Below the pieces are notes generated by a model. It was not told where the DNA came from. It saw only the letters and a list, made by a program, of their open reading frames with translations, and did no database searches. Source: Asterias amurensis (taxonomy: Eukaryota; Echinodermata; Asteroidea; Forcipulatida; Asteriidae). From it: DNA of 64,000 bases. The first letter of the stretch is position 1, and every line of letters begins with the position of its first letter. This document shows, one piece after another, positions 4,331 to 62,962 of this stretch. The translations under genes and the position numbers were made by a program. The stretch is from positions 18,533,501 through 18,597,500 of the forward strand of contig NC_092650.1 in NCBI RefSeq assembly GCF_032118995.1, given 5' to 3'.

Positions 4331-4561
4331 AGGAGAGTGAGTTACGGAACAACAGGACCACCAAGGCAACAAATCCCAACGGAAGCACAGCACTGTGGCG
4401 ACGTAAATTTGGTCATTACAAACAGAGGTCAATAATTCGAACACAATTTTCGTTACACCGTTTCCAAAGAAAAACAAAAGAAGACAGAAGTTCTTTGGTG
4501 AATAACTTCAAAGCCAGCTTTATTCGTTTGCTTTACATGGTTTTATTTCAACCCATGTTGA

Positions 4562-24104: not shown

Positions 24105-25417
24105 TGTGTAGATTCCGATTGACTTGTGTATGGTTGTGTAGTTTCCCATTGACTTGTATAGGGTTGTGTAGTTTCCCATTGACTTGTGTATGATTGTGTA
24201 GTTTCCCATTGACTTGTGTATGGTTGTGTAGTTTCCCATTGACTTGTGTATGGTTGTGTAGTTTCCCATTGACTTGTGTATGGTTGTGTAGTTTCCCATT
24301 GACTTTTGTATGATTGTGTAGTTTCCCATTGACTTGTGTATGGTTGTGTAGTTTCCCATTGACTTGTGTATGGTTGTGTAGTTTCCCATTGACTTGTATA
24401 TGGTTGTGTAGTTTCCCATTGACTTGTGTATGGTTGTGTAGTTTCCCATTGACTTGTGTATAGTTGTGTAGTTTTTCCATTGACTTGTGTATGGTTGTGT
24501 AGTTTCCAATTGCCTTGTGTATGGTTGTGTAATTTCGCATTGACTTGTGTATGGTTGTGTAGTTTCCCATTGACTTGTGTATGGTTGTGTAGTTTCCCAT
24601 TGACTTGTGTATGGTTGTGTAGTTTTCCATTGACTTGTGTATGGTTGTGTAGTTCCCATTGACTTGTGTACGGTTGTGTAATTTCCCATTGACTTGTGTA
24701 TGGTTGTGTAGTTTCCCATTGAGTGGTGTACGGTTTTGTAGTTTCCCATTGAGTTGTGTATGGTTGTGTAGTTTCCCACTGAGTTGCGTACGGTTGTGTA
24801 ATAAATTTGAGTTGGAAACTTACCATAATTTTATAATAATAACATGGTTGTGTAGTTTCCCTTTGACTTGTGTATGGTTGTATAGTTTCCCATTGACTTG
24901 TGTATGGTTGTGTAGTTCTCATTGAGTTGTGTACGGTTGTGTAGTTTCCTATTGACTTCTGTATGGTTATGTAGTTTCCCATTGACTTGTGTATGATTGT
25001 GTAGTTTCCCATTGAGTTGTGTACGGCTGTGTAGTTTCCCATTGAGTTGTGTATGGTTGTGTAGTTTCCCATTGACTTGTGTATGGTTGTGTAGTTTCCC
25101 ATTGACTTGTGTATGGTTGTGTAGTTTTCCATTGACTTGTGTATGGTTGTGTAGTTTCCCATTGACTTGTGTATGGTTGTGTAGTTTCCCATTGACTTGT
25201 GTATGGTTGTGTAGTTTCCCATTGACTTGTGTATGGTTGTGTAGTTCCCATTTTGTAGTTTCCCATTGAGTTGTGCATGGTTCTGTAGTTTCCCATTGAC
25301 TTGTGTATGGTTGTAAAGTGTCCTACTGACTTGTGTATGGTTGTGTAGTTTCCCATTGACTTGTGTATGGTTGTGTAGTTTCCCGTTAACTTGTGTATGG
25401 TTGTCTAGTTTCCCATT
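24105..25417. repeat. Higher-order duplication inside the minisatellite, copy 2
   Basis: Partner of 21,023-22,335 with offset 3,082 bp. It differs by only a few substitutions (for example CCCACTGAG for CCCATTGAG before the spacer, ACTTCTGTATGG for ACTTGTGTATGG), so the duplication is recent compared with unit-to-unit divergence. Confidence 0.85.
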
Positions 25418-31400: not shown

Positions 31401-31664
31401 GTATGGTTGTGTAGTTTCCCATTGACTTGTGTATGGTTGTGTAGTTTCCCATTGAGTTGTGTACGGTTGTGTAGTTTCCCATTGAGTTGTGTATGGTTGT
31501 GTAGTTTCCCATTGAGTTGCGTACGGTTGTGTAGTTAATTTGAGTTGGAAACTTACCATAATTTTATAATAATAACATACCTCGAGAATTTGCTGACTGA
31601 GTGAAAACTAAACTGATGCCAATCCATTATCTTGGTGATTTTTTAGCAATCGTGTCTCTGTCTC

Positions 31665-43208: not shown

Positions 43209-46200
43209 TCATTTGGTTGACCACTTCCCATATCCAGGCCTGATTCCTTTGGTGTTGATCACATCAACAACGACGCCGTGCTTGAACTGGTTCCATTCTC
43301 GCTTCAACTCTTGGTCAATGTACTCATTGTGGATGTCATCCTGGGAATTTTTTTGGGTAAAGAGAAATTTTCAAAATACAAGAAATATGTTAATGAAAGA
43401 AATTTTAGTATTCAAAGGTTGTATTATTTGCCCTGTTGGTAGCATTGGTGTGTAATTAAAAAAGACAATAAATAATGTGTAAATGAAAGAAACTTTAGTA
43501 TTTTAAAGTTGTATTATTTGCCCTTGTTATTATGGTGTAAATTATTGACCAGTTGTGAGAGGAGTTGCTACCACCTTTTGACATGAAATTTTCACAGTTT
43601 TTAATTTTGTTTTTATAGAATCTACATTTATATAGGGTTAAAACAGTGGAATGGTAAAAAAAAACAAAGGTATACAATCCCTTTTAGAAATAACAAGTGC
43701 TTTGAGATGACCCATGGGCGTAGATAAAGCGATTCGTACAAACTATGCTAATAGACCTTTTGCATTGACTTCATCCAGCCACCATCTTAGTGGTAGAACG
43801 GTGACGAAACAATCAAAACGCACATGTTTGTACACAGCGTACAGGATTGGCCAATGAACACCCCTCCTTTTGACCTCTGCTTGAGGGCGCCAAAAAGGTA
43901 CTGAAATGACGTGATGTGCATCAGGTCTATTATAGTTTGTTGACTTACCCTCGTTAGGTTACCATACAGTCTTTCATCTTAGTGGTAAAACGGTGACGAA
44001 AACAATCAAAACGCACATGTTTGTACACAGCGTACAGGATTGGCCAATGAACACCCCTCCTTTTGACCTCTGCTTAAAGGCGCTGAAAAGGTACTGAAAT
44101 GACGTGATGTGCATCAGGTCTATTATAGTTTGTTGACTTACCCTCGTTAGGTTACCATACAGTCTTTCATTTGACTGTCTCAAGAGAGCTTTGGTTGTCT
44201 CCTCAAGATCTGGAAAAACAAAAATGCAAGCAAGGATATTTTTGTAAACATGCCAAATTATGTGTCTTTTTTCTGACACTTTTACAATGTATCTTTAAAG
44301 TCAGACAATTCAATTAAAAATCAATAATTTAGGCCTCTCTCATTCACTTGTAAATAAAAAATTCAAAGATTAATTTAGGCCTCATGTTGATCCAACCTCT
44401 ATAAAGCACTTCACAAAATTAACAAAACTTCTTAAACAATATGAATAAATTATTTAAAATTGACTAGCACTGGACAGAAAACACAGACAAAATACATGTA
44501 AGTGCAACAAAATGGAGACAAGTGGCCATTTGGTACATCAAGGTAAAATAAGCAACAAGTGTTTAAAAGACCTTTTAATGAAATATCCTCAGTTATTACA
44601 AACATCAGCCAATCAGCCTGAAACTGAAACAGTAAGAAATTCTTAAACATCAAAACAAGATATTTCTAATCAGTGTTGTACATGTAGCCAGACCAATTTT
44701 AGTGGTTGGTTCCAAATTCACTTTAGTCCACCAAGGCAAGCTTTTCAACAAAATTATTCACGTTTAGATATGAGGCCATCGTTACAGAAGTACAATCTAG
44801 GGGAAACCTGTGCTAGGCAGAACAGTATGTTTTGCTCAAGAGTGCTGGGCAAAATTTGTTAGTTCCGGGCAGGCCCACCCAGCACCGTCCACCGTGGTTA
44901 CAATCTTGTTTCTAATCAATGCAAGTTTACAGAGGTTTAAAAAAACAAAATTGCAAAAGGAATTATAAAAGGTAAACAAATTTTTAAAAGAATTACAAGA
45001 GGAACATGTGATTTTTTTCAGTGCATCTTGATACATTGTTATTGTCCGTCCTGTAATTCCACTAAGAGCCACGCCAACTTTACACAAACTGGTTCCACTG
45101 ATTACCAGAGGCCCATAGGATTTGCCTTAAAGTGTTTCTTTAATGATTCAAAGACCAAGGTTTTCTCAATTTTAAAAGTTATAAGAAATGCTTTTAAAGC
45201 CATTGGACACTTTCGGTAAACAGTATTGTCCAAAGGCCCACACTTCGTGTATCACAACATTGATAAAATAACAAACCTGTGAAAATTTAAGCTACATTGG
45301 TCAGCGGAGTCGGGAGAAAATAACGGGAAAACCAACCCTTGTTTTTGCACTTTCGCCGTGTCATGATATGTGTTTAAAATAAATCCGTAATTCTTGATGT
45401 CCAGAATTGATAATTATTTTAATGTTTTCTCAAAAAGTAAAGCATTTCATGGAAAAATATTTCAAGAGAAGTCTTTCACCATTACCTTCTGTAAACTCTG
45501 TAAGTTATTTGTAAATCTGTGAACTTTTTTTCTTTGTTCTTTTCCGAAAGTGTCCAATGGCTTTAAAATGATGAAAATGTGATTTGGAGGAAAATTATGC
45601 AAAAACATATTCCAGCTTTAGAGCCGCAAGTAGGGTAAACTTTTGCTGTGCAGCAGATACACCAACCAGCAACCCACAGGATAGGCATAAATAACTTCTA
45701 TTCTGAGATTTCCGATAGCGGCTTGTAAAAAGACTAATTATACAAATGTTGGTACAGTACCTTGTAGTCTCTCTGGTGTGATAATACCCAGTTTGATGTC
45801 TGATGCGGTTACAATGGAACATGTGATAGCCTCTGCGTCCAGCACACTAATCTCACCAAATGACTCCGCCTCTTGCAGTCGCCCCATAACGACTTGTTTC
45901 AGACGTTTTTCCTGGAGAAAAAAAAAGGAAAGAAAAAAAAAACCTTATTAAATGGGCTTCTCCGTCACGAGCAGGCCTGTGACTTTACATGGAATTATGA
46001 ACCCTCTCCCAGCTACTATAGATGAATGATCTGGATGAGAGTTTGTTTTGATCATCACAGTTGAACCAAGCAAGCGCTCGCGCAGCCAATATGGGTATGA
46101 TATTCTATATCTGTGACACAGACTCTTTTAAAACACTCTCAAGTCAAACTGTGAAACATTACCTGACTGCCGTTGGGCATTTTCTGAAGGACGTCTACTT

Positions 46201-49200
46201 GTCTCAAGACGTGGCAGTCTCCAGACTTGATGAAAGCAATGAAGGGACACAGGTAGCCCTCACTCACCAGTACTGTGTAGAAGAAAATACAAACAAGTCG
46301 TTGCTACATTATCATTAAAGAAGCTGGACACTACTGGTAATTGTCAAAAGGAGTCTTCTCACTTGGTGTATCTCAACATATGCATAAAATAAGAAACCTG
46401 TTAAAATTTGAGCTCAAATGGTCGTCGAAGTTGGGAATGATGGAAGAAAAAACACCCTTGTCACAAGAACTTGTATGCTTTCAGATGCTTTATTTTGAGA
46501 CCTCAAAATCTAATTCTAAGGTCTCAAAGTCAAATTCGTGGAAAAATACTTCTTTCTCGAAAAATATGTTACTTCAAAAGGAAGACGTTTCTCCCAATGC
46601 TTTATACCAACAACAGCTCCCCATTACTTGTTACCAAGGAAGGTTTTATGCTATAAATAATGATTTTGAGTAATATTTAGGTCAAAATTAATATTCCTCT
46701 CAATACAGTTGTCTGCGATTGTACAACTGGGGGAATCATGCACCAGGCAAGTTACAAACCCCATTCTTTGTAGGTTTGCAAGTAAGTTTTGAGAAAAAAA
46801 ATTGTCCGGCACATGTGAAAATGCTCAAGTATCTGTTGGGGAAAATAAAGTGATTTAAAAACCAACCTGTATTCTCTGGGAATTTTGTCCATCTGATGAG
46901 TTCAGCTAGTTTGTGAAGTGACTGCCTTGGCCAGAGCTGGTAGCGTTTACACGCCTGTATTAGGTTGATCTTCTCGGATATGTGGCGTTCTCTTATTTGC
47001 TAAGAAATAGCAGAGGAGTGGCAAAAATTGATAACATCCGTAATAATTCAATCAATCATCTTTTGTTGAGTGACACTTGTTGAGTTACTTTGGGGTAACA
47101 CTATCTCTGAATGAGTTGGGGTGGTTCTGAAAAGAACCATTGGTTTTAACTCGACGTTTCAATCAGTATGCTCTGATCCTCTTCTGGAGAAAAGCAGTAT
47201 CTTTTGTTGCTTAATCAAATTAATTTTGCATTGAACATAAACAATTTGGAGTGGCAGACTTTAAAGGTGCAAGCGAATCATTGTGCTGCGCCCTACTAAC
47301 TGAGCTATCTACAGTCATGGCCCAGTTTTTTTGGGCCCCCTTCCCTCATACACCTCGTGTTCAATGTTGGCTTTCATTGCGCAATCTGTGTCCCAGTTAG
47401 TGTTAACAACATTATGCAGGGGAGCCGGGGAACTTGGGAAGGGCATGTTTATTGTCACTTGATCCAAGCATTGGCCGGGATTGTAATAATAATAATAATT
47501 ATCAATACCAAAGCGCTTCTGACATGAATACCCCTGGTCACTGGGCCATTTATTTAATTCCAAAAACCGTCTCAGTTCCCTGGGGAGTATACAGCCGGTG
47601 CTGCGAGTGACCACGCTCTCCAAGCTAATCATTCACAGAAACCATCTCTGCCTTCGCAGGTAAACATTTTTACCGCTGGGTGGAGAGAAGCAATAGTTAA
47701 GTGTCACAACCAGGATTGTAGCCCTCATGTTGGGGGTCTCCCTACATACAGTTTTTCCTGTAGTTCACTAGTTCAAAATATCACTATGAAAAACCGGAAG
47801 AAATAAAAACTCACCTCTGTTATTCTCTTGAAATCATTGCTTGAGATCTTCAAAAACTCACAAGGAACCGATTTGGTAAGAACTGTCAGCACTCTGCAAG
47901 ACAAAAATGTAGATATATGACTCACCTTTAAACAGTGCAAAACGCTGCGAGTATTAAAAGAGGTATCACAGCAAACAATTATTCATAAATACCTCAGACA
48001 GTTTCGCTATTCCTATGACCAGTAAAACGTGTTGAAACATGGGCGTGACAAGCGAGCTTGCACCTGTGCTTATAAAACAGTTTCATCATTCCTATTGGTC
48101 GAGAGCAACGGCTGAAACAGTTGTGCCACATCACGCAATACACGTGACGTGCACAGCATTCCCTTCAAAAGGAGTTACCCGAGGGCCTTACCATTTCATA
48201 GCTGGAGGGGTGTTGTGTTGAAAGAAATCATTGAGCAATTACAACTTTTGCATTTATTTTAGTTTTTGACCAAAAAGTGTTGATGTTTTTTGACCGAAAA
48301 GGTATTTATGAATGGGAATCAAAGTGTGTTGAATCGGTTTTCAACTAGTGGTTTAAACGCCGCCGAGGCCTGGTTCTTGATAATTTACCTCAACTTCGTC
48401 TCGGTAAAATTATCAAGAACCAGGCCTCGTTGGTTTTAAACCACTAGTTGAAAACCTCTCCACCACACATTGATTCCAGTAATAATAAACACACTGTGGG
48501 TTATTTTATGGTGCTTTATCATACCCCTAGGTGCATATCAAAGCATTCACTGTCTCTTACATTCACTATGTGTTTTTCTACTGATAAGAAGAGCTATATA
48601 TATAACCCATCTATACAGCACATTGATGGTTTACAAGGTGCTGCAATGTAATCAGCAGCCACTGCGACACAGAGACAGTATCGTGTTTCACGAACCCCTT
48701 TGCCCAAATTTTAGCGGCTTAGGGTTTGTAGGCTCAAGGTATAAAAGAGAAAGTTAGATGAATTGCCCAAAAGTTTTCTCTGATGAACAGGGATACAAAT
48801 GTTGCCAAGCGCCTTGATCTTGCTACTAGGATATGCACTGTGTAAAAACCAATTATTATTAATCAACCACATCTGTTTTCAATGTATCTGTTTTTAGTAC
48901 ACTCACTTGCTATTAGGTTCTTTTCCTTCCAGTCTTTCCAGAGTTCCGAAACAGTCACCAACTGTAAGCTACAACACACAAACAACATTGGTTATTAAAA
49001 AAATAAATAATTTACACATATAACTAATTTCATGATGGCCATAAACTTCCCTTGAAATGTGTTTTGCTTGAATCGCTATATAGTTTTTAAGAAATTAGTT
49101 ACACAATTAGTTTTGATCCTGCAACATTATGGGAAAAAGTAAAACAAACTTACAGAGTCTATTCAATGTCATTATCAGTGATCTGGAATATGTTGCAGAA

Positions 49201-52200
49201 ATCCCATTTCTTGGGGAAAAGGGGATCCTCAAGGAGCTGGTAGTAGCGGTAATCTATTGAGAGTTTACTCTTAGAAGTCTTTGAAGTTTAAGTGAAACCA
49301 CAGGGCTGTGTGCTTCGTTTTTGAAAGGGCAAGGGCACCAAGGCATTTTCTCCTTGGTAAAGGGCACCATATGATGTAATTGCAAATCCGACTGGAGCAT
49401 TTCAAGGGCACCAAGTAAATGACCAGGGGACACGGAGGCAATCGCCTTCGTTGCCTCCGTGAAGTATCAGGCCTGAAACCAGTATACAAATATTGACTGC
49501 TTCGAGTGCCATGGTTAAAACTATGACTCCTGAGGTGATCCCCGGAGTGTTCTATTTTCCCGAGGCGAAGCCGAGGGAAAATAGAGCGCTACGGGGATCA
49601 CCAAGGGAGTCATAGTTCTAACCATTGCACGAGTAAAAACAGTCAATATTTGTTTTATAACACCCCAAACATTTCTAACTATTGTACTATTATTATTAAG
49701 TTGCAGACCTGAATGCTACAATCCACGAACGACGCGAATACAGATTGCAAACACTTTTACTGTGCTGCATGTAGTATCCTGCAATCCTAAATGGTTACAG
49801 ACTATTAATTTATCATCCTCGTACACGCAACGGACGTCTGGGTACTGCACGCCATGTGCTAGTCTTCGGACTAGCGCATGACAAACCGACGCACTATCAC
49901 ACGGCCGTCGTCTAGCAAAACTAAGACATGTCATGTGACGCGCTCTAGCAGAATACTTGTAAGGGGTGTTATAATACACACTAGCTTTGATTGATGGATT
50001 GATTGACTTGTTTTTGACTAAACTATTGATATAAACAAACCTCAGTAACATCTTTATCCGTGTGAACTGTAGTCGTCATGATGGGCGTTGGGGAGCGGAA
50101 TTCCCCAGGGTCGCCTCTGGTCCTTAACCATGGCTCGGTCTGTGGTACCACTGAACCCCGTAGTATGATGTGAAATCCATTGTTACCAAACACTGCAGTA
50201 GTGGAACATAGAATATAGGTTAAACTTTCCATAAATTAAAACCCCTTTTTATACCTTCAAGCTGCTCCTAGGAAAATGTGCAATTAATATTATACAAATA
50301 TTGAGTGGCGAAGAGGTAACTAGGTGTACGTCTATTCCCCAGAGGAACTTTGAGTGACTCGAAGAGGGGCCTATTTCCTGAGGCCGACGGCACTGGACAC
50401 TTTTGGTAATTTTCAAAGACCAGTCTTCTCATCACATGGTGTATCTCAACATATGCACAAAATAACAAACCTGTGAAAATTTGAACTCAATTGGTCGTCG
50501 AAGTTACGAAAAAATAATGGAAGAACTAACACCCTTGTCATACGGAGTTGTGTGCTTTCAGATGCTTGAATTCAAAACCTCACAATCTAATTCTGAGGTC
50601 TCAAAATCTTGAAAATGTTTCTCAAAAAACAACGTTACTTCACAGGAAGCCATTTCTCACAATGTTTTATACTATCAACATCTCTCCATTGATCGCTAAC
50701 AACAAGTAAGTTTTTTTTGCTAACAATTATTTTGAGCAATAATAAATAGTGTCCAGTGCCTTTAACCACCAGCTATTTGAGGGTGTATGTACTTTTTGTA
50801 GGACAAAAAACACAATGTGCACAGATTTACACTAAACTTACACAGTTTGAAGATAATGATAGTAGAAATCTTCCCTGAAAATATTACTTGCTGAGGTGCT
50901 GTAGTTTGTCGGTAATGAGTAAAACAATGTAATGAAAATAATTTTCGTCTCATGAGACCAAATTTTTATTTTTGTATTTTACAAATGTATTTTCATTACC
51001 TTGTTTTACTCATTTCTCAAAAACTACAGCACATCAGTAAGTAATATTTGAAGGGAAGCTTTCCACTATCATTATCTTCAAACCCTGTAAGTTTAATGTA
51101 AATCTATGGACATTTTGCCACCAGGCCATGACACCATCGCTCTCTTCAACTCACCTGTATAGTCTTCATCTTTCCAGATGTCCATCTGAGCCGTTGTGCA
51201 GAGCTCCTTTAGTTCCTTATTGGATAACTGCTCAGACAGGAGAGGGAACTCTTTCAGGTGTGTGTAGATGATGTCATTGTCTTCGGCAGTCCTCTCGTAG
51301 GGTCTGAGAGAAACATTACATGTAATTACATGAATCAACTAGTTTGGGTTTTTTTGTTTTTTTAATAATAATAATTGTGGCTTCTTATAGCGCACATGTC
51401 TGTCGCTCAGTGGGCTCCAGGCGCTTTAACATACAGTATTTCCTGCCAGATGTGGGACTACGTTTTTGAATTATGAGACCTAATCCTTAAAAAGCACCAT
51501 GTAATGTTTTATAGGGTGCTATGGTGCAGTATGAGATATTCCCTAACTACAAGGATGGATGGCCACTTTAATGTGAGGGGCTACACTGGACTGCAGACCA
51601 GATCAATAGACCATTCCCATGAAATATGTCAATTGCACATAGCGCGTGCGCACTGACGTTTTGGTTGGCAAATTGAGGGAACATCGCGCTGTTTTGTACA
51701 CGGGTAATGGGTGCGTGACGCAGACGCGATTGGGCTTCTGCTTAGTGCACAACTCTATGGCGTTTGCCAACCAACAGGGTCTGTACGCATGCGTGAATGT
51801 TATTAGCATATTTCATGGGAAGGGTCCATTGCCACTGGCATGACTGGGGGTACTCACAAGGCTGACACTAGGACCCTGGCTGGTAGAGCAGAATGCACTA
51901 CCTTTTTATGTCATTATCCCTCTGCAGTCCTCTCATAGGGTCTGAGAGAAATATGACATAACGTGAATCAACTATTTTTCTATTTTTTGTTTGTATGAGA
52001 TATCGCCTTCAGCTGGACGGCAACTTCAAAATGAGGGCTACACTTAAATGATTTGGGCCATTGACCCAGATCCACTGTCACCAGGGACACAGTGGAAACT
52101 TTTGACGGGGCACCAAGGCCAAGACCAGGGGAAAAAGAGGCCGCGGCCTCAATGTTAAGGGAGCGTCTCAAAAGTCGGAACGGTAGGAACGTTCTTTTTG

Positions 52201-55200
52201 GATCGCAAGAGTATCCCCGCCGCTTTTGTCCGTTCCACAGGACCGGTCTTTTGGAACGCTCCTCGTATACTTTGTCATGATGTTGCGATCCTGCGGGCAT
52301 ATGCCCACGATCCATTGGATAGCGGGCATATGCCCGCAGGAACGTTCTTTTGCGCTAGGAACGTGCCCGACTTTTGAGACGCTCCCTAATTCAGCCGATT
52401 TTCTACCTTCCGCCAAGGTAGTAGTTTATAAACAGGACAGTTCTTTTCAGAACTGAGAAGTTTTGATTCTGAAAATCTACTCTGCGGTAGGAGAAAAGTC
52501 TCCCAAATTTTGAAAAATCTACTTTGCATTAGTAGAATTTATAGCAAGACAGGTTCCCAGAAGGTAGTTTACCCAGCAAGAAGATATACACACGGTGTTA
52601 CTGCAAATCAAACATGCAAAGCATCAAGCATTTCTTAAAAGCCAAGATGAACTTTCTCTCAACTCACAGTTTCTTGAGAAGCGTCCTGAGTTCTTTGATT
52701 CTCTTAGCGGCAATGATGACCGGGTCTACAATCTTCCTCTCCTTGTGTAGTTTGGCCATGTGGTCAGCTACGTCATGACTCAACGTCTCCGGTGAAACGA
52801 TGTCAGATAAGCGATTTGTGCTACTCGGGACAGCGGTCGCCGAACCTGGTTGATGAAGAACATTAAATTCTCATCAGTTTAGAAAGAAATTATTGGGATC
52901 TTACAATGTACTGGGTACAAGAAGCATTCTTGAATGCATGCAATCTTAAGGGTAATTTAATGCAGAGTTCTCTCTACAATTTGCCCAGGAAAAGATATTT
53001 TGTTGAAGTATATCATGGGAAAAGGGCAAAAGGGGTCGACAGGCTTTTAGTCGTCTCACAGCACACATCACATGACCCAAATTGCTTTTAACTTTGTCAG
53101 TGGTTTGCAAAGCAGCAAGACTGTATAATTTTTCTGTCTTCTGTAAAGGCAAAATATGAGACTTGGTTATAAAAGACACTGGACATCTTTGGTAATTGTC
53201 AAAGACCAGTCTTCTCACTTAGTGTACATTTTATCTCAACATAGATGCATAAAATAACTGTGAAAATTTGAGCCTGATTGGTCTTCAAAGTTGCCAGATA
53301 ATAATTAATAAAAAAAACAATCTCAGGAAGTTGTGTGCTTTCTGATAGGGTAATCAAGGCTAAGACTATGGGGTAACAGTAGAGGCCTCTGTGGAATTAC
53401 AGGCCTGAAATCAAATCAACGATTTGACACATGAGAAAACCTGGTCAAAGGGTTGAGGGAGATCTCATCTCTTGTACATTTTTTTAAATAAATACATTTT
53501 TATAAACTAATATATGTTTAAGAAGTAACTGTACATATATAAATAAATAAATAAATAAATAGTAAACTTGCATACCATGGCAGTTTAATGGCTATGGCTA
53601 ACGGCCAAGATTCTGTGATTCACGATGAATGGCAAGTCAATTTACTCACAGATCAAAATGATCATCCTGGTGCTAATAATGAGAACCTTTGTTGTCTTCT
53701 CCTTTGTTATGTCAAGGTTTCATTATATCAATGATATTTTCTAAAGAAAAAATATTTTTCTAGAAGCTCCAACACTCTTACCTGTAGCTTCATTGGAGAT
53801 GCTTTTCATTGGTTGGTCCCGCCTCCCAATAGGAATGCTGGGTAATGGTTTATTGTTGGCAAACATCCGCTGGTAGTTCTCCATGAAGAAATGATGGCCA
53901 TCTTCTGTAGACTCAGTGATTGCCCTAAGAAAACACGCAAAGTTTGTTGTGACAGTTAGTTCTTTTTTAATAATAAACTGCTCACAAAAAGTTAAAAATT
54001 TTTTTAAAGCCATTATACACTTTCGGCACAGAAAATAAAGTAAAAAAGCTCACAGATAACTTACAGGGTTTACAGAAGGTAATGGTGAAAGACTTCTCTT
54101 AAAATATTATTCCATGAAATGCTTTACTTTTCGAGAAAACATTAAAACAATTATCAATTCTCGTTGTCGAGAATCACATATTTGTTTTAAACACATGTTA
54201 TATCACACCGCGAAAACAAGGGTGGGTTTTCCCCGTTATTTTCTCCCGACTAAGATGACCGATTGAGCCTAAATTTTCACAGGTTTGTTATTTTTTATAT
54301 CAGTTGTGATACACAAAGTGTAGGCATTTGGACAATACTGTTTACCGAAAGTGTCCAATGGCTTTAATCAAGTATGTCTTTTTTATGTAAAAACTCTCTT
54401 TGTAATGTTATTATCAATGCAAAGTTGAAGCGTTTCTCTTTAAAAAGATACCACATTTTTGCAATGATTACATGTTGCTGAGTTTGGCTACATGAATGAC
54501 AATGAGGCAAAGTCATAAATCAAATGTGCCAAAATTACCGTTTTCTGCGCTGCACAGTCAATAGCTAATGATCAATAATTAAACCGGTCAAGCTTCAGAA
54601 CTATGGATGGTTTACACCAGTGAGCACACCACACACAATTTGCCCTCATTTCTTGAAAAACACCCTTTTTGGGGTATTTACACAAATTCTTTTCTCAATA
54701 AAGTGGATTAAGATCAGTAAGTTGTCTTGCTTGTTTGAAATACAGTGTCAACTTGTTTGTTTACACAGTAACACAAAATTGCCAATGTGTGTCCCCTTAA
54801 AATGTAAGTAATGACTCAATATAATTTTTAGCTTGGTAACAAGCAATAGCGAGCTGTTGATAGTATAAAACATTGTGAGAAACGGCTCCCTCTGAAGTAA
54901 TATGGTTTTTGAGAAAGAGGTAATTTCTCACTAAAATATTTGAATTTGATTTCGAGACCTCAGACTTAGATTTTGAGGTCCCGAAATCAAGCATCTGAAA
55001 GCACACAACTTTGTGTGACAATGGTGTTTTTTCTTCCATTATTATCTTGCAACTTTGACGACCGATGGGAGATTTTTTGGACGCTTGGTGGCAGCAGACT
55101 TACCAGGTAAAATCCATTGTTCTCGGTAATGTGCGCATACTCAGAACTACATAACAATGGAAATTTACCTGGTAAGTCTGCTGCCACCTAGCGTTCCAAA

Positions 55201-56650
55201 GTCTCCCATTGAGCTCAAATTTTTACAGGTGTGTTCTTTTGTGCATATATGTTTAGATACACCAAGTGAGAAGACTGGTCTAACAGTAATGTCTAGTGTA
55301 ATTAAGACCAGATATATACCTTCCTTTCAGACCCTCATGGTTGTTAATTATATCCAAATTGGTGTAGTCGATGACAGGTCTTGGATCCTGCCCTGGAACT
55401 GAAATAAAAAGAATAAACATCGTAATCAAGGGGTGTTACAATCAGGCCTGGTTGAATTGAGAAATAAGACATCTGGCGTACACCGCACTGTCTTTGTTTG
55501 TGTGCTGTATATGCGTGAATGACGCCTGTGCACCGAAATGGAGCAGATAAAATCCAATTAACCTCGATTGGTCTGAACATTCGTGTTTCATAGACATAGT
55601 AATAATTGTTGAGTGCACTTTGACAGCAAAAGCAGCAGTGAGTATCCATGCAGAGTAGGAAATTTAACTTTTTGTATGTTTTTTGTATGTAAAACTCGGC
55701 AAAAAAGGCATAATAAACAAGCATTGTAAATGTACGTTCTCAGAGTCGGACAGTGTGTTGGAGAAGAAAACAAATTCTCTTTTGCCACCACTTATTGATT
55801 TTGTTATGAAAAAATGTGCACTAGGCCTATAATTTACACACAAATTATATTAATATTATTTCTTTCTGATTGTAAAAATTACATTTTTTAAAAAAGTGGT
55901 GGCAGAGTTATTTTTGCCTGCAAGTGCAAGTTGTTAATGACCTAGTAATAGTATACAGTTAGTTATATTAATATCCCAGCAGTGAGTGTGCGATTGTTGT
56001 TTGTAAATTATATTACTCATTATTTTTGTTATTAGTATTATTTTAATTGAGAGATGCAGATACATAGAGCCAGCCGAGCAACTTGATGGGCTCGTCAGGG
56101 GAGGAGGTTGTCAATTGCCAATCAATAGGCACGGCCAGAAACAAATGCATGAAATTCACAGTGTGACACCCACCAGGGCCCCAATTTCATAGAGCTGCTA
56201 AGCACAACAATTTGCTTAGCATGAAATTTCTTCCTTAAAAAAAATTAATATAGACAAAATTTCAATTTGTTGCATGTTTCTTGTTACTGGTATTCAGCTG
56301 TTGTTTGCTTATCCTGAAAATCATGTGGAAATTTGGTTGGAAATCCTGTTTTTATCAAGGAAGAAATTTCATGCTTAGCAAATTTTTGTGCTTAGCAGCT
56401 CTATAAAATTGGGCCCAGTTGTCCACACATCGTAATTTGGGGTTTGGGGCGAATGTGCAGCTCACTTCAAATCGGCACCCATTCCTTCATTCAATTTCAA
56501 TGCAAGTTCAGACTACCAGACTGTTTGTTTCTTACCTTTGTGTCGTATTTTCTGGGGATCTCTTTCACTCCACTTGACAACTTTATTATCACCCTTTCCA
56601 TGAACAATCGTAGACGAAGCCATTTCATTTAAATCACTTTCACCAAACAT
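43209..56650 (-). CDS. CNBD1: Cyclic nucleotide-binding domain-containing protein 1-like
   Basis: Thirteen coding exons on the minus strand, 5' to 3': 56,650-56,536, 55,398-55,320, 53,924-53,782, 52,845-52,668, 51,303-51,155, 50,192-50,041, 48,968-48,907, 47,893-47,815, 46,999-46,867, 46,272-46,163, 45,911-45,761, 44,209-44,142, 43,340-43,209. Every junction is GT-AG and all phases agree, giving about 461 residues. The ATG at 56,623 (AATGAAATGG) has the better context and would give 452. Human CNBD1 is about 436. Two cyclic-nucleotide-binding-like beta-rolls are visible: VFGNNGFHIILRGSVVPQT to DCFGTLERLEG, and VLVSEGYLCPFIAFIKSGDC to MGRLQEAESFGEISVL. The second keeps FGEISVL of the phosphate-binding cassette, but the following segment DAEAITCSIV lacks the usual PR(A/T)A arginine, so nucleotide binding is doubtful. 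The motifs NNGF..IL.G...PQT and MG.L.E.ESFGEISVL match CNBD1 as I recall it. Function is unknown; no membrane segments. Confidence 0.8.
43784..44170. repeat. 192-bp tandem duplication including a CNBD1 exon edge
   Basis: 43,784-43,975 and 43,976-44,170 are near-identical, from ATCTTAGTGGTA(G/A)AACGGT through GTGATGTGCATCAGGTC to CTTACCCTCGTTAGGTTACC. The second copy contains the splice donor and 3' part of exon 12 (44,142-44,209). The first carries a duplicate donor and about 28 bp of duplicate exon. Confidence 0.9.
45196..45567. mobile_element. MITE family B copy
   Basis: TTAAAGCCATTGGACACTTT then CGGTAAACAG ... TTTTCCGAAAGTGTCCAATG then GCTTTAA. Near-perfect inverted ends of about 23 bp and TTAA edges. 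Confidence 0.92.
46316..46680. mobile_element. MITE family A copy
   Basis: TTAAAGAAGCTGGACACTAC ... TGATTTTGAGTAATATTTAG. The right terminus is lost. It lies 44 bp from CNBD1-like exon 10. Confidence 0.85.
47085..47210 (-). repeat. Possible retroelement 3'-end fragment
   Basis: On the minus strand: AAGAGGATCAGAGCATACTG, then ATTGAAACGTCGAGTTAAAA, then GGTTCTTTTCAGAACCACCC. GAAACGTCGA-type motifs with a short TTCTTTTCAGAA hairpin are common near the ends of several retroelement groups. I cannot name the family. Confidence 0.4.
47982..48460. mobile_element. Element family I with terminal palindrome
   Basis: 48,340-48,460 is a long palindrome: GGTTTTCAACTAGTGGTTTA ... GGCCTGGTTCTTGATAATTT / AAATTATCAAGAACCAGGCC ... 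TAAACCACTAGTTGAAAACC. The rest (CATGGGCGTGACAAGCGAGC, AGTTTCATCATTCCTATTGG, ACCCGAGGGCCTTACCATTT) recurs inverted at 61,716-62,235. Confidence 0.85.
49308..49482 (+). repeat. Dispersed repeat H
   Basis: TTTTTGAAAGGGCAAGGGCA, TCCTTGGTAAAGGGCACCAT and GAGGCAATCGCCTTCGTTGC match 35,280-35,450. Confidence 0.8.
49483..49652. mobile_element. Foldback element family J
   Basis: ACAAATATTGACTGCTTCGA ... ACAGTCAATATTTG ends. Inside, GTGATCCCCGGAGTGTTCTA and TAGAGCGCTACGGGGATCAC form a long stem capped by CCCGAGGCGAAGCCGAGGG. Confidence 0.8.
49653..49985. mobile_element. Possible inverted-repeat element
   Basis: TTATAACACCCCAAAC at the left is matched by AAGGGGTGTTATAATA at the right, about 320 bp apart. 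Only one copy is seen here. Confidence 0.45.
50388..50766. mobile_element. MITE family A copy
   Basis: GGCACTGGACACTTTTGGTA ... AAATAGTGTCCAGTGCCTTT then AACC, with CTCACAATCTAATTCTGAGG hairpin remnants. Confidence 0.88.
50800..51115. mobile_element. Foldback element family O
   Basis: CAGATTTACACTAAACTTAC ... GATAATGATAGTAGAAA on the left is inverted on the right as TTTCCACTATCATTATC ... GTAAGTTTAATGTAAATCTA. The centre holds a second inverted pair around TGTAGTTT / AAACTACA. Half of another copy is at 63,850-64,000. Confidence 0.8.
51607..51829. mobile_element. Inverted-repeat element family M
   Basis: Left GACCATTCCCATGAAATATG; right CATATTTCATGGGAAGGGTC. TTGGTTGGCAAA inside is matched by TTTGCCAACCAA. 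About 223 bp. Confidence 0.8.
51906..51985 (-). pseudogene. Duplicated edge of CNBD1-like exon 5
   Basis: TGTCATTATCCCTCTGCAGT, then CCTCTCATAGGGTCTGAGAG, repeats the exon 5 acceptor end (51,268-51,345: TGTCATTGTCTTCGGCAGTC, CTCTCGTAGGGTCTGAGAG). The duplicated intron part CGTGAATCAACTA also matches. The rest of the exon is missing, so it is not a usable exon. Confidence 0.75.
52157..52387. mobile_element. Inverted-repeat element family G
   Basis: GGGAGCGTCTCAAAAGTCGG ... CCGACTTTTGAGACGCTCCC. A second inverted pair, CGGGCATATGCCCACGATCC / GGATAGCGGGCATATGCCCG, lies inside. Confidence 0.92.
52388..52600 (+). repeat. Dispersed repeat L
   Basis: CCGATTTTCTACCTTCCGCC, AAGGTAGTAGTTTATAAACA, GGACAGTTCTTTTCAGAACT and ATATACACACGGTGTTA match 36,640-36,810. 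It sits directly against the family G element. Confidence 0.65.
53169..53340. mobile_element. Truncated MITE A
   Basis: AAAAGACACTGGACATCTTT ... GGAAGTTGTGTGCTTTCTGA. Only the left half remains. Confidence 0.8.
53540..53563. repeat. (AAAT)n microsatellite
   Basis: Six AAAT units. Confidence 0.85.
54004..54366. mobile_element. MITE family B copy
   Basis: TTTAAAGCCATTATACACTT ... CCGAAAGTGTCCAATGGCTT then TAA. Confidence 0.9.
54800..55300. mobile_element. MITE family A copy split by a nested foldback
   Basis: 54,830-55,066 runs from TTAGCTTGGTAACAAGCAAT to GACGACCGAT. Family A resumes at about 55,207 with TTGAGCTCAAATTTTTACAG. The outer ends are eroded. Confidence 0.8.
55067..55210. mobile_element. 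Nested foldback element in MITE A
   Basis: GGGAGATTTTTTGGACGCTT, then GGTGGCAGCAGACTTACCAG, is inverted at the right as CTGGTAAGTCTGCTGCCACC, then TAGCGTTCCAAAGTCTCCC. About 140 bp with 50-bp arms. Two further TAAGTCTGCTGCCACCAACT-like pieces occur at 60,290-60,310. Confidence 0.85.
56172..56415. mobile_element. MITE family C copy
   Basis: GGGCCCCAATTTCATAGAGC ... GCAGCTCTATAAAATTGGGCCC (ends given in part), with the usual internal TTGCTTAGCATGAAATTTCT pair. It lies in CNBD1-like intron 1. Confidence 0.9.
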
Positions 56651-57046
56651 GTGCAGAAGGGGGGAAAAATCAACATTCCGGAAGACCGGTGTCAGGACCA
56701 CAAACGCAACCCACTGACTGTCTTTACAACTTCTGAAGAAATTGTGCTAGGCAACAATAAACAGTCCGCTTGAGGGCGCTATTCCAATATTTATAATTAA
56801 TTGGCCGTGCGCGTGTGTGATGATTGGATGACACGGATTGTCACAAGAGCATCTTATTTCTCCTACATCGCTGGCAATCTCCCCGCATCTATGATGAATT
56901 GAATGATGAACGTATGCGGTGTTGCCATGTCGTCATGTTAATGAGGGCCATCTTGTGATGCTGTTGTTTTCACCGCGAAGATGACGGCTGAGAAAAAAAG
57001 AATTGATTTAGGAAATCAAACAAATCAATGATGTGAAAAATAATCG
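56651..57046. promoter_or_regulatory. Candidate bidirectional promoter between CNBD1-like and CNGB-like genes
   Basis: The gap between the CNBD1-like start (minus strand) and the first plausible plus-strand 5' exon. A plus-strand donor AATCG|GTAAGC lies at 57,046/57,047. Upstream of it is a short open frame starting ATGACGGCTGAG at 56,982 that ends before the donor, so this exon would be untranslated. Neither transcription start can be placed from sequence alone. Confidence 0.35.
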
Positions 57047-57544
57047 GTAAGCATGAATGATGGATGGATGGAGGAGAGAAACTATAAAACATATGTTAGT
57101 TACTAAGTTGGAGTAGAGGAGGGATGAGACGAAAAATGACATTTATTTGATTTATTTTGAGGTTCTGAAAAGTGGAATTACAAGTTGACAGTTGAGCTGT
57201 TTATGTATGGAATAGTCTAGCCCACCTTGTTGAGCTGTAACATAGGTTTCATCACTGTCACCCGTCGAAGGAGGGCTGTAATGGTGACAGTGATGAGACC
57301 GATGTTAAAAGCGGAGCCATTAACAGCTCAACAACGTGGGCTAGGAATGGTCCTAATGTACAGACAGCAGACTCCCTTATTCCTCCATGATTTATGAGAT
57401 GAATTTCAGTGTTCACAGATTGCTGATCACCTCCCCATGATCACTAGTCACAGATTTAATGTTTGTTGTTCACCATTGAAATGTGTTTTGTGGTGGGATT
57501 TTGATAATGCTTACAAATAATATTATTTTTTTTTTGTTTTTACT
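57047..57544. other. Intergenic or first intron; contains a palindromic element
   Basis: 57,217-57,350 has inverted ends TAGCCCACCTTGTTGAGCTG / CAGCTCAACAACGTGGGCTA and an inner pair CATCACTGTCACC / GGTGACAGTGATG. Nothing else is recognised. Confidence 0.7.
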
Positions 57545-57690
57545 CATATGCACCGATGTGTGTAAGCACTGTATAAGTACTTTCCCGAGTCCTGTGAAAA
57601 AAATCACTGGCATTTTACCTGGGTGGGATTCGAACCCATGACCTTTGCAATTCTAGAGCAGATATTAATTTTTGGTGATATTCTATATCC
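57545..57690 (-). mobile_element. tRNA-derived SINE copy, reverse orientation
   Basis: The plus strand shows GTGGGATTCGAACCCATGAC (inverted B box), TTTGCAATTCTAGAGCAG and CTTTCCCGAGTCCTGTGAAA, the reverse complement of the 41,043 SINE. The box A end is cut off. Confidence 0.75.
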
Positions 57691-57732
57691 CCGATACAAT
57701 TTAACAGCTTACAAATGAGTTACTTACAAAGA

Positions 57733-57900
57733 CCATGTGACCTGTGACATCACATGTTTTGCAAAAGGGCAGGAGCCAGGCGTTAATTTCCTGCAAGTTG
57801 TACACAGCTGAATGGAAGAAAAATTCAAACTTCATTCTATGGCACAGTACGATTATTATTGACTTTTGACGTAAAAAAAAGAGGCATTAAAACTTGCTTT
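57733..57900 (+). repeat. Dispersed repeat K
   Basis: CCTGTGACATCACATGTTTT ... GTACACAGCTGAATGGAAGA, as at 2,764-2,960. Confidence 0.55.
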
Positions 57901-57943
57901 AATAACTGTTATGTACAATTTATTCTTCTGTACGGTAGTTATG

Positions 57944-58885
57944 TTGGGCGCGATCGGTCAATCTGCGCAATCAACCGATCGCGCTGCGCTATTGAACGAT
58001 CAAATTAAGATCAATTGGTCGCGCAGCAATCGGTCGATCGCGCAACAATCGGTCGATCGCGCAACAATCGGTCGATCTCGCAATGACATCTTTGCCCGAT
58101 TGACCGATTGCGCTACAAGTATTTTTTCCCGTTATCGGCAGATCGCGCAGGAAAGGCTTTGCGCGATCTACCGATCGTGCAGGAATGGGTTTGCGCGATC
58201 GACCGATAGTGCAGGAAAAATTTTGCGCGATCAACCGATCGTGCAGGAAAAGTTTTGCACGATCTACTGATCGTGCAGGAATGGGTTTGCGCGATCGACC
58301 GATCGTGCAGGAATGGTTTCGTGCGTTCGATCGTGCAGGTAAACTATTCCTTGGGGCGATTTCTCAAAGCAATAACATTCATAGCAGGACAAATTTTCAG
58401 TATCACCATAGTGATTTATATAGTGACGTCACACTACGATTGATTTGCAGTTACAATCAATGTTACATCTTTGTGAATTCGGCCCCTGAACATCAGCCGA
58501 TCGCGCAAAACAATTCCTGCACAATCGGCCGATCGCGCAAAACCATTCCTGCACAATCGGCCGATCACTCATAACCATTCCTGCACAATCGGCCGATCAC
58601 TCATAACCATTCCTGCACAATCGGCCGATCGCGCGAAATCATTCCTGCACAATTGGCCGATCGCGCCGAGCCATTCCCGCACGATCGGTTGATCGCGCAT
58701 GTTCGTTGCCGAATATTGCGCGATCGACCGATTGTTGCGCGATCGACCGATTGTTGCGCGATCGACCGATTGCTGCGCGATCGACCGATTGCTGCGCGAC
58801 CAATAGATATTTCAATAGCGCAGCGCGATTGGTCGATAGCGCAGCGCGATCGGTTGATCGCGCAGATTGACCGATTGCGCCCAAC
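57944..58885. mobile_element. GATCG-rich foldback element (family D), complete
   Basis: Terminal inverted repeat: left TGTTGGGCGCGATCGGTCAA, right TTGACCGATTGCGCCCAACA. Each arm of about 400 bp is itself a tandem array of 17-30-bp GATCG-containing units. The core (58,340-58,490) has TTTCAGTATCACCATAGTGA, GTGACGTCACAC and CTTTGTGAATTCGGCC, shared with 4,905-5,035. No coding capacity. Confidence 0.9.
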
Positions 58886-59164
58886 AGTTACACGATACAG
58901 AATGTATTTTTATTCATTAAAGATCAACTTGCCTGCCAGGAAATGCCGTGGATTGTTCAGGTCACTCTTTTTGTAAACAAAGAAAAAAGTTCCACACTTA
59001 ATAATTGCCCTTAAAATTTTGCGGAACATTGTTTTGTTATTCTGGAATTATGGTTTCAGTATGGTATTTTTTTCTAAAGATGACAAAAAATTTTTGAATG
59101 TTTGGACTAACTTTCACTAACCAAGAAATTTGTTGTTATTTTAAACCAATAGACAGTTGTGTGA

Positions 59165-62100
59165 ATGTCGCAACCAAGCAAGACCACCAATCTCCCAGCC
59201 AAACTCAAACCCTTGAAAGTCATGGCCCATCAGAGACTGGAAACGATGGAGCTGCACAACCTCCAACCCCTAGGCAGTACGACCTTACTGCCACCGGTAC
59301 CCGCAACCACCCCAACCATCTGCTTGTCCGCACCGACTACCAGTCACCAGAAATCTCATGAGTCCCACCATCATCTTGAAGTCAGTCTTATTCCAGTTCC
59401 CGGCCCGGCTAACACAGACCTGGGAGGCAGCACAAATGCCGGCTACATCTCAGACGGGAGTGTCGTGACACCAGTGAATCGATTGGAAAGTGCTTTGAGT
59501 GGAAGTACGTTAGAATTTTTAAGTTTCTACTCTGATAAAATATCATCTATATCAAGCTTTTACTTTCTTGACTTGTCTTTTAAAAATGTCACTACCAGAG
59601 CCCAATTTCATGGAGCTGCTTCAGCACAAAAAGTAGATTTATAAGCACAATAAAATTGTGCTTACCTAAATATGGTTACCATCAGCCAAAATCTCTTATA
59701 TAATCTGGGACTGGGTTTACACCTGCTTAGCAGAAACTTGTTAAGCAGTGTTTTTTGCTTAAGCAGTATGAAGTTGAGCGCAGGGCCCAACTTCATAGAG
59801 CACAAACATTTGCTTAGCATGAAATTTGTGTCTTGATAAAAACAAGATTACCAACCAAATTTCCACATAATTTTCGGGATAAGCAAACAAGAGCTGAATA
59901 CCAGTAACAAGCAATATGCAACGAATGAAAATTTTGTTGGTAATCCTGTTTTTATCAAGGAAGAAATTTTCATGCTAAGCAAATTTTTGTGTTTAGCTGC
60001 TCTATTAAAGTGAGCCCAGAAGTGTTTTGTGTTGAAAACTGATGGTCAGCTAGCAGCGGACTCAACATTTTGACAAATAAGTATTTTTCACCGACACAAG
60101 CAAATTTACTATTTTTCATTATTTTTGTCTTTGCTTGACAGAGCTGAGCAGCTTGAGTCATGTGTCCACAGACAGGGAGGGATACCAGAGTTCCAGGATT
60201 TTGTCCAGCAGTCCGTCGCCATCTGCCGCTGATTCCGTCTTCAGCTCCAATGGGGATCTACACCAACTTACCCTGAATACGGGCAAAAGGTAAGTCTGCT
60301 GCCACCAACTGTCCGGGAACAAAACTACCCTGTTGCATTTATTGGCCCCCTTGGGCCCCTACCATTAGCCTTTTTGAGGTATGGTGGACACTATGCGAGT
60401 GCACTGTTTGGTTTGGGTGTATATGGAAAAAAATTCCCCAGACCAATCAGTATACAGTGCTTACACACACCGGGGTGTAAGGTTAAAACCAAAATTAATA
60501 TTCATTAGGTTAATGTTATAATCTGGAATATTATTAAACACACTATGACTCCTATTTGTCCACTATTGTCCCCGATTTTTAAAAAAAGGGGTCTAGCCCT
60601 GTCAGATTCCCTCGGTCTTCCAAACAACCTGGAGGCGATGATGGCCAAACGGTTCAGCCTTCCAAACGCTGGCACCATCGAGCACCTCAGCCCCACCTCG
60701 GCCAAGATGTCCAGCTTCAAGTCCTCGGACCCGCTGACCAGCAGTAACAGTCACCTCTTGGCCAGTAGGTCGGCCTCGTCGTACAACGGAGATCTCTTGA
60801 CGTCACAGGCAAGCTCCCCCGGGAGCAAGTCATCGCGGGGGATGGGGCGCTGGTTCCAGAAGAGACCCTCGGCTGTCAGCTCAATCAGCAGCATGAGTGA
60901 TGTCAGCTGCATCAGCAACAGGTTCGGAAGATGGGTTGTAAATTATGTTGTAGAATCTTTAGTTGAAGGCAGCCGATTTCACAAAATGCTAGGATTAATC
61001 CTATCTCGAGTTAGAGAGAGTAACTCCTCCTCACTTAGGATGGGTTTAACGCGTCCTATCGTTCGAAGTCCTGAGATTAATCGTCGGCTGGGCACTATTG
61101 GTAATTACTCTATGTTATAAAACATTGTGATATGCTATGTTATAAAACATTGTGAGAAACGGCTCCCTCTGAAGAAACGTAGTTTTTGTATAAAAAAAAG
61201 GTAATTTCGTACTCAAATATTTTAACATTTTAGGCCTGAAGCCTTTTTTTAGGCATCTAAACGTGCATAAATGTGTGCAACAAGACTTTTTTTTTTCTTT
61301 CGCTGTTTTCAAATTTTTCACGAGTCATGCCACAGACACAAATTTGTCACGAGTCCTGCATGCAACCTTGAGAACTGATAAAGACATGCAGCCAGTCTAA
61401 AGCATGCTTTGATCACATTCACTTTGCTTATAGTTCTTACACACACAAAAACAGGAATCCTGAAATCAAAATCTAATAAAATCTTATGTTAATCATTTGA
61501 ATTATGATTTATCCTCAATCAGTCTGGATGAGGATAATGGAGCTGCCAATGCACGACAGAAACTCCAGGATCTAGTGAAGTCGGTCACTCAGCGGGCCAA
61601 GAAGGTTGGCCGCAACGAGGTTGCACCGATCTCAACAGTCTCAGCCACTCTTGCTCCTCCCCCAAGTAAGTGTAAACACATACAAAGATTAATACGGGAA
61701 TCAACGTGTGGTGTGAAAGAGGTTTTCAACGAGTGGTTCAAACCCAACGAGGCCTGGTTCTTGAAAATTTTACCGAGACGAAGTTGAGGTAAATTATCAA
61801 GAACCAGGCCTCGGCAGGTTTAAATCACAAGTTGAAAACCGATTCAACACACTTTGATTCCCATTCTTAAATAGCTTTTCGGTCAAAAAACATCAACACT
61901 TTTGGTCAAAAAGTAAAATAAATATAATTGTTCAATGATTTCTTTTTTCCACACTACCCCTCCAGCTATGATGAAGTGGTAAGGCCCTCGGGTAAACAAC
62001 TCCTTATAAGGGAATGCTGTGTGCGTCGCGCGTATCGCGTGATGTGGCACAACTGTCCCGGCTGTTGCTCTCAACCAATAGGAATGAAGAAACTGTCTTA

Positions 62101-62962
62101 TAAGCACAGGTGCAAGCTCGCGTGTCACGCCCATGTTTCAACACTTTTTACTGGTCATAAACAAACGTTTATACACACCTACGTGACGCGCTCTCCACCA
62201 ATAAGAATAGTGATCTGTCTGAGGTATTTATGAATAATGAATAATAATTCATAATTTTGAAGGAAGCTATATTGAGTTTAGAAACCCAATTATAAAACAC
62301 CTTGTTAAAGGTATAACATGTGCTGTGGCACAGTCTGCAGACAACCTTACTTTTTAGGTACTTAATTCTTGACAGGCATTACACAAAATGGTTGCCACAG
62401 CTTTATTACATGTAAATTTCATCTCAGTTTTGATCTAACAACGATAACATTTCTTGCTAGTACACAAGTGCCCGACCCACATTCTTTTGCAGGTCAGCTC
62501 ATAGTTTAGATTGGAATCGATAGAAATGATTAAACGAAAGACAGATGTTTCGTTTAACCGATAAGGAAAATAAACGTAGATGCACAAACCAAAACTCTAC
62601 AAATCTTACAATTATTGTGGCTTCTGATCACTGCCATCCCTGACAAAAAACATTGACTAACAGGGAGACCACCAACATACATGTAGGGCTGAATAGCTCA
62701 AATGGTAAAGTGCCCATACATTAATCTGCAGGTGATTGGTTCTTGTCCCACTCCAGTCAATTTTTTCTTTGTTTAAACCCTCAAATCGCTATCATCTTTA
62801 CAGTCGGTCACAACATCCGGAAACGGCTTGATTCATTTGCTCCTAGTAGCGCGACGGACACCACGGAAGAAGTCCAAGTGAAGAAATTCAACTGTTGCGG
62901 GATGCACAGAGTGCAAAAATTCCTGCTGAAGTACACCATTCCAGATGCCATCGATCCTACAG
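59165..62962 (+). CDS. CNG-channel beta-subunit-like protein, N-terminal part (continues past window)
   Basis: Five coding exons with GT-AG junctions and consistent phase: 59,165-59,504, 60,142-60,289, 60,589-60,921, 61,523-61,665, 62,804-62,962. About 374 residues, with the next exon outside the window. The start is the ATG at 59,165, preceded directly by an in-frame TGA and 14 bp from an acceptor. Residues 1-280 are Ser/Pro/Thr-rich and probably disordered (SSSPSPSAADSVFSSNGD; SSISSMSDVSCIS). A basic helix follows (QKLQDLVKSVTQRAKKVG), then VKKFNCCGMHRVQKFLLKYT, then IPDAIDPTG. In cyclic-nucleotide-gated channel beta subunits a similar order occurs: a disordered N-terminus, a helix like LQELVK..K.RTEKVKEK, a CC-containing segment, and P.SIDP just before S1. 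I infer a CNGB-type channel from this, but the S1-S6, pore and nucleotide-binding domain are not in the window, so other proteins remain possible. The exon 3 acceptor is weak (TTTTTAAAAAAAG). Confidence 0.6.
59598..60017. mobile_element. Two adjacent MITE C-type copies in an intron
   Basis: 59,598-59,790 runs from GAGCCCAATTTCATGGAGCT to AGTATGAAGTTGAGCGCAGG. 59,788-60,017 runs from GGGCCCAACTTCATAGAGCA to GCTGCTCTATTAAAGTGAGC. The second has the usual TTGCTTAGCATGAAATTTGT arm. Confidence 0.75.
60405..60512 (+). mobile_element. SINE body/tail fragment
   Basis: AGTATACAGTGCTTACACAC, ACCGGGGTGTAAGGTTAAAA and CCAAAATTAATATTCATTAG match the 41,150-41,218 part of the SINE. Confidence 0.6.
60965..61325. 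mobile_element. Composite inverted-repeat / MITE A fragment
   Basis: CCGATTTCACAAAATGCTAG ... ATCTCGAGTTAGAGAGAGTA is followed at 61,085 by GGGCACTATTGGTAATTACT and then family A blocks (ACATTGTGAGAAACGGCTCC). GCTATGTTATAAAACATTGT G is tandemly repeated at 61,102-61,155. Confidence 0.7.
61716..62235. mobile_element. Element family I, reverse copy
   Basis: Begins with the palindrome GGTTTTCAACGAGTGGTTCA ... GGCCTGGTTCTTGAAAATTT / GGTAAATTATCAAGAACCAG and ends near GTGATCTGTCTGAGGTATTT. Interior blocks AATGGGAATC, CTCGGGTAA and CGTGTCACGCCCATG are those of 47,982-48,460 in reverse order. It starts about 50 bp after the donor of exon 4. Confidence 0.85.
62236..62687. other. Intronic sequence, nothing recognised
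   Basis: AT-rich intron of the CNGB-like gene. No repeat or RNA signature seen. Confidence 0.4.
62688..62759 (+). repeat. Decayed tRNA-like SINE head beside an exon
   Basis: GGCTGAATAGCTCAAATGGT ... GGTTCTTGTCCCACTCCAGT aligns with 38,950-39,021, including the following TCAATT(C/T)TTTGTT tail. The tail runs into the acceptor of exon 5 at 62,803. Confidence 0.65.

Follow-up and report, generated by a model that had tools for sequence, protein, structure and literature searches.

Head-to-head CNGB-like and CNBD1-like genes in the sea star Asterias amurensis, a probable counterpart of vertebrate CNGB3–CNBD1

The window under study is a stretch of 64,000 nucleotides of the sea star Asterias amurensis (NC_092650.1, positions 18,533,501 to 18,597,500), located on a contig (C3) of 28.59 Mb which makes up 5.8% of the 491.5-Mb, 23-contig genome. 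It carries two neighbouring genes in divergent orientation: on the minus strand a gene resembling CNBD1, whose product contains cyclic-nucleotide-binding domain (CNBD) regions, and on the plus strand a gene resembling the beta subunits (CNGB) of cyclic nucleotide-gated (CNG) channels. Gene models confirmed that both are real, the two coding starts (ATG 56650 on the minus strand and ATG 59165 on the plus strand, in window coordinates) being separated by 2,514 bp (56651 to 59164), and either gene may have further non-coding exons upstream. An earlier sequence-only reading of this DNA had proposed a divergent CNBD1-like and CNGB-like pair with about 2.5 kb between coding starts, and the models bear this arrangement out; the interval that it singled out starts at 43209, the last base of the CNBD1-like stop codon, and ends at 62962, the last base of the fifth CNGB-like exon, with the channel core lying beyond the window.

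The plus-strand gene was modelled in 17 exons from 59165 to 76459, with compatible phases and no internal stops, encoding 1035 residues. Its first five exons occupy 59165–59504 (an in-frame stop directly precedes the ATG at 59165), 60142–60289, 60589–60921, 61523–61665, which matches CNGB1 in its N-terminal LQELVK region, and 62804–62962, and the last twelve run past the window end, to 76459. A phmmer comparison of this protein with PDB sequences returned 159 distinct matches at E≤0.001 and, as ranked among the best 60 of these 159, CNGB1 comes first (E 8.2e-149, 500.6 bits), followed by CNGB3 (E 7.7e-138, 464.3 bits) and CNGA2 (E 1.6e-109, 370.6 bits). The selectivity filter, TIGNLP, is devoid of the glutamate typical of CNGA (TIGET), and the pore stretch TIGNLPLP has an asparagine where CNGB1 has a glycine (TIGGLPDP), while the phosphate-binding arginine of the CNBD is kept (FGEISLLSVGVGNRRTA, as aligned with CNGB1). 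By these sequence features, the plus-strand gene encodes a CNG channel subunit of the beta type, and its product would be the modulatory partner of CNGA, whose gene lies on another chromosome, within a channel gated by cGMP.

The strongest match to the CNGB-like core elsewhere in the genome lies on contig C4 (E 4.5e-94) in an uninterrupted frame, and we assign this paralogue to CNGA because of its TIGETP pore and its C-terminal coiled coil. In this CNGA (C4:4124535-4125707), a single frame of 490 residues stretches from roughly S3 as far as the C-terminal coiled coil; the CNGB core, by contrast, is divided among many exons. A second CNGB copy was also considered; its strongest candidate is this same CNGA, and weaker matches lie on C6, C1, C10, C9, C19 and C16.

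The model of the minus-strand gene runs from 56650 to 43209 in 13 exons. Its splice sites are AG/GT, its phases are consistent, its only stop is terminal, and the product has 516 residues. Exon 1 (56536–56650) has its first ATG at 56650 and a second in-frame ATG at 56623, and its donor is the sole one between 55400 and 59200 to pass the phase-1 consensus filter that we used. Exons 2 (55320–55398), 3 (53782–53924) and 4 (52668–52845) were placed by splice sites and phase, the last two coinciding also with weak tblastn pieces. The first CNBD-like region begins in exon 5 (51155–51303), and is followed by exon 6 (50041–50192) and exon 7 (48907–48968), the latter having been chosen among seven phase-compatible candidates because it carries FGTLE, as does the human CNBD1 sequence used for comparison. 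Exons 8 (47815–47893) and 9 (46867–46999) come next; of the second CNBD, exon 10 (46163–46272) encodes a part and exon 11 (45761–45911) the segment FGEISVLDAEAITCS, in which no arginine follows FGE, meaning that the phosphate-binding arginine is missing. The gene closes with exons 12 (44142–44209) and 13 (43209–43340, stop codon included). A 193-bp tandem duplication (43783–44170, 96% matches) copies the 3' part of exon 12.

The assignment of the minus-strand gene to CNBD1 rests on a human CNBD1 reference sequence that was not taken from a database. Before exon joining, tblastn of this sequence on 113.5 kb gave five ordered minus-strand pieces, with a best score of 45.1 bits and linked E values of 3.4e-12 and 6.3e-4, while a control with 20 shuffles and one reversal reached at most 26.2 bits; the weakest two pieces (26.6 and 26.2 bits) are thus comparable to the shuffle maximum and count by their order alone. 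Once the exons are joined, blastp aligns the two proteins with 121 of 427 positions identical (28%, E 2e-54), and the score of the global alignment, 451, compares with at most 28 in 200 shuffles. In agreement with the earlier expectation of a cyclic-nucleotide-binding fold in both products, the Pfam profile PF00027 (cNMP_binding) is matched by a CNGB exon as well as by the joined CNBD1-like protein (E 8e-11, two stretches, the best at residues 358–452, exons 9–11). The names given by the sequence-only reading therefore held for both genes: that of the minus-strand gene by its match to the reference CNBD1, and that of the plus-strand gene once the remaining exons had been read as a CNG channel closest, among the PDB sequences, to CNGB1 and then CNGB3. 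No second CNBD1-like locus was found, since all 13 genome matches at E≤10 fall here, although a relative as distant as CRIS could escape such a search.

We expect the minus-strand product to be soluble and to contain a pair of CNBD-like regions. Because the phosphate-binding arginine is missing from the C-terminal region, this region probably serves for protein interaction, as a module of a non-binding, scaffold type, and not as a cyclic-nucleotide sensor. We have considered whether the gene might instead be CNBD2/CRIS or yet another CNBD protein, an identity to which the comparison with a CNBD1 sequence from outside the databases leaves some room, and CRIS is indeed reported in sea urchin (PMC3854790). 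However, the cAMP response of CRIS/CNBD2 requires R288 in its FGE...R288 stretch (PMC3854790), an arginine missing from the minus-strand protein, and the latter aligns with the reference CNBD1 over 427 positions, so that we regard this identity as very improbable. Map positions raised the idea that CNBD1 and CNBD2 are ohnologues from the two rounds of genome duplication (2R). We abandoned it in view of the reports of CRIS/CNBD2 from sea urchin, Branchiostoma, Hydra and Drosophila (PMC3854790).

A corresponding arrangement is found in mammals. In the dog the gene order on CFA29 is CPNE3–CNGB3–CNBD1, and a deletion takes CNGB3 together with exons 1–4 of CNBD1 (PMC3639114); since the deletion swallowing CNGB3 includes these first exons, the 5' end of CNBD1 must face CNGB3. 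In human, c.1148 of CNGB3 maps to chr8:87656008 and c.1663-1205 to chr8:87617644 (PMC7960924), and positions that fall as the cDNA advances place the gene on the minus strand, whereas CNBD1 has higher positions, 87,878,670-88,627,447 (PMC10179231), the coordinates of these two papers being assumed to refer to the same assembly. As human CNGB3 is read from the minus strand and lies below CNBD1, and as dog CNBD1 has its 5' exons beside CNGB3, the mammalian pair is head-to-head, and the positions given in these three sources thus agree with the statement, in the sequence-only reading, that human CNBD1 and CNGB3 are adjacent and divergent. The distance from the human CNBD1 start to c.1148 of CNGB3 amounts to 223 kb (PMC7960924, PMC10179231), which is an upper bound on the human gap.

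In the sea star, the gap between the two coding starts contains a self-complementary foldback element of 977 bp (57926–58902), recognised by its self inverted alignment (72.6% over the whole length), by its inverted arms and by its DNA fold, with a z of −30 against 20 shuffles. The element is near-palindromic, with internal repeats of 19 and 32 bp, and has a relative near the window start, at 4561–5201. The observed/expected CpG ratio is 1.3–2.0 across the element, about 1.1 just upstream of CNBD1-like exon 1 and 0.39 around the start of CNGB-like exon 1. The earlier suggestion of a shared promoter has to be judged against this structure and against the mammalian spacing, the 5' end of human CNGB3 lying presumably some 120 kb from CNBD1. 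If the two genes were driven, and the pair thereby held together, by a bidirectional promoter or by common enhancers, this would suit the short divergent gap of the sea star and the conservation of orientation in mammals. However, the repeat element fills part of the gap, the human distance quoted above is large, and in dogs the deletion of CNGB3 with CNBD1 exons 1–4 gives a cone disease very like that of a CNGB3 missense allele (PMC3639114), so we consider shared regulation unlikely as the cause. In fact, a compact shared core promoter is doubtful, being neither shown nor needed, and it is an unlikely reason for the conservation because the mammalian spacing is far larger; this part of the earlier proposal is not sustained. 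A selection-scan paper in goats states, after a STRING network analysis, that CNBD1 regulates CNGB3 (PMC9498695), a statement that we do not take as evidence of such regulation.

An ancient tandem origin of the two genes, also put forward by the sequence-only reading, fares no better. That both proteins match PF00027 is what would be expected if they were duplicates of one CNBD gene. However, the CNBD1-like protein matches the cytoplasmic half of the CNGB-like protein only at E 0.35, and its solved relatives at E≤0.01 are four, all of them EPAC proteins, each matched by weak separate stretches. Beyond the common fold, their sequences disfavour a sibling relationship, and we see hardly any likelihood of tandem duplication.

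Considering these data together, we think it very probable that the locus corresponds to the CNGB3–CNBD1 pair of vertebrates, having come down from the deuterostome ancestor and been kept by slow rearrangement. That ancestor would already have had CNGB and CNBD1 genes head-to-head, and the pair would most likely have persisted through slow intrachromosomal rearrangement, perhaps aided by shared distal regulatory DNA, rather than through a shared core promoter or the common descent of the two genes. The chromosomal surroundings were analysed in the same light. All five genome matches of ATP6V0D, the single one of the ETO NHR2 domain and two of the four BRK domains fall on C3, the last forming a close pair, as in CHD7-type proteins, 0.57 Mb from the window. 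In human, we take these families to map to 8q21/16q22 (ATP6V0D), 8q21/16q24/20q11 (ETO/RUNX1T1) and 8q12/14q11/16q12/20q12 (CHD7-type), and the copines to 8q21/16q13/20q11. The presence of ATP6V0D, ETO and CHD7-type BRK domains on C3 makes it probable that this contig derives from the chromosome ancestral to the vertebrate CNGB paralogon (Lagman et al., PMC9803222), some expected members being found elsewhere.

A number of points weigh against this interpretation. The comparison covers two lineages, sea star and mammals (dog and human), and with thousands of gene pairs in a genome, two lineages may come to share a neighbouring pair by chance, the more easily on an orthologous chromosome. Seven of the 16 copine matches are on C3, none of them close to the pair, and none of the 43 genome matches to the catalytic domain of the MMPs, a CNGB-paralogon family in Lagman 2022 (PMC9803222), is on this contig; the nibrin family was undetected in the genome search. 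In addition, the CNBD1-like exons account for none of the 19 whole-genome PF00027 matches, the domain being recognised only after joining, and the human CNBD1 reference, which does not come from a database, was set down once the window frames had been read and guided some of the exon choices.

With both gene names right, the adjacency could then have arisen separately in echinoderms and vertebrates, by rearrangement within the orthologous chromosome. The restriction to two lineages and the position of copines and MMPs, distant or elsewhere, are compatible with this, and a chromosome that looks orthologous by three families makes a chance rejoining easier than it would be genome-wide. However, adjacency combined with the same divergent orientation is improbable by chance, roughly 5e-4 for one named pair if the chromosome is taken to carry about 1,000 genes, and a separate origin appears quite unlikely to us. 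Inheritance of the pair is consistent with the two lineages compared. In the literature searched for CNBD1 with synteny, amphioxus or CNGB3 there is no mention of the pair outside vertebrates, and the text 'CNBD' is absent from the paper on CNG evolution (PMC9803222).

If the gene order is deeply conserved, then the pair predates the echinoderm–chordate split, the vertebrate CNGB paralogon is tied to one ancestral chromosome, and there is reason to ask whether CNGB and CNBD1 are co-expressed. Among the genes behind achromatopsia CNGB3 is a major one, while the characterisation of CNBD1 is described as incomplete (PMC3639114). A bolder proposal would be that CNBD1 is a nucleotide-blind CNBD scaffold which has been co-regulated with, and has acted on, the CNGB channel since the deuterostome ancestor, the arrangement being a sign that the two work together in ciliary photoreceptors or sperm; we give it little credence. 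Most likely the head-to-head arrangement has no special function behind it, and as a conserved pair it is ordinary in kind.

The remaining features belong to the surroundings of the pair. Away from the CNGB-like gene, the CNBD1-like gene is flanked by a convergent neighbour, HAUS4, an exon of which is contained in a plus-strand frame at 41131–41445 (Pfam PF14735, E 6.8e-17, residues 34–92 of the frame); isolated predictions comprise a tRNA-Asn (38950–39021) and a tRNA-Ser (41048–41120), the latter just before the HAUS4 frame. A tandem array of 12.4 kb (19105–31536), with 415 copies of a 30-bp unit at 89% matches, accounts for the strong strand asymmetry between 20 and 32 kb. The window opens with a (GTT)n trinucleotide array (1–753) that continues upstream, low-complexity frames beginning about 3.9 kb ahead of the window and reaching 0.8 kb into it, and frames rich in leucine-rich repeats (LRR; 7223–10566), with 156-bp LRR units in a tandem array, perhaps belong to an NLR gene. 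Beyond the window, a segment of about 10 kb is present in two near-identical copies (~84.4–90.2k and 94.7–100.3k), whose open reading frames look immunoglobulin-like and C-type-lectin-like by eye. Elsewhere in the genome, COX1 has its best match on C23, where the gene reads as an open frame of 517 residues with mitochondrial tables 5, 9 and 13 but not with tables 1 and 2. Two COX1 copies also lie 16.4 kb apart on a nuclear contig (C5:658874-676634), which suggests that whole mitochondrial DNA was inserted in tandem or that the assembly is at fault.

In comparison with known systems, the CNGB-like protein has in common with CNGB1 and CNGB3 the transmembrane core, the beta-type pore, the FGEISLL...NRRTA stretch of the CNBD and the N-terminal LQELVK region. 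The CNBD1-like protein shares with the human CNBD1 reference two CNBD-like regions and an FGEISVL domain without the phosphate-binding arginine, whereas its C-terminal tail (exons 12–13, about 66 residues) is absent from the latter. It also resembles CRIS/CNBD2 in being a CNBD protein with neither channel nor kinase parts, of a kind reported in echinoderms too, but CRIS/CNBD2 keeps R288 and responds to cAMP (PMC3854790), while the sea star protein is without that arginine. At the level of the locus, the outer neighbours that can be named lie on opposite sides, CPNE3 beyond CNGB3 in the dog and HAUS4 beyond the CNBD1-like gene in the sea star. The spacing also differs, with 2.5 kb in the sea star against what we take to be the order of 100 kb in human, within the 223-kb bound. 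Adjacency and divergent orientation are nonetheless common to the sea star genes and to vertebrate CNGB3–CNBD1, on human chromosome 8 and on dog CFA29.

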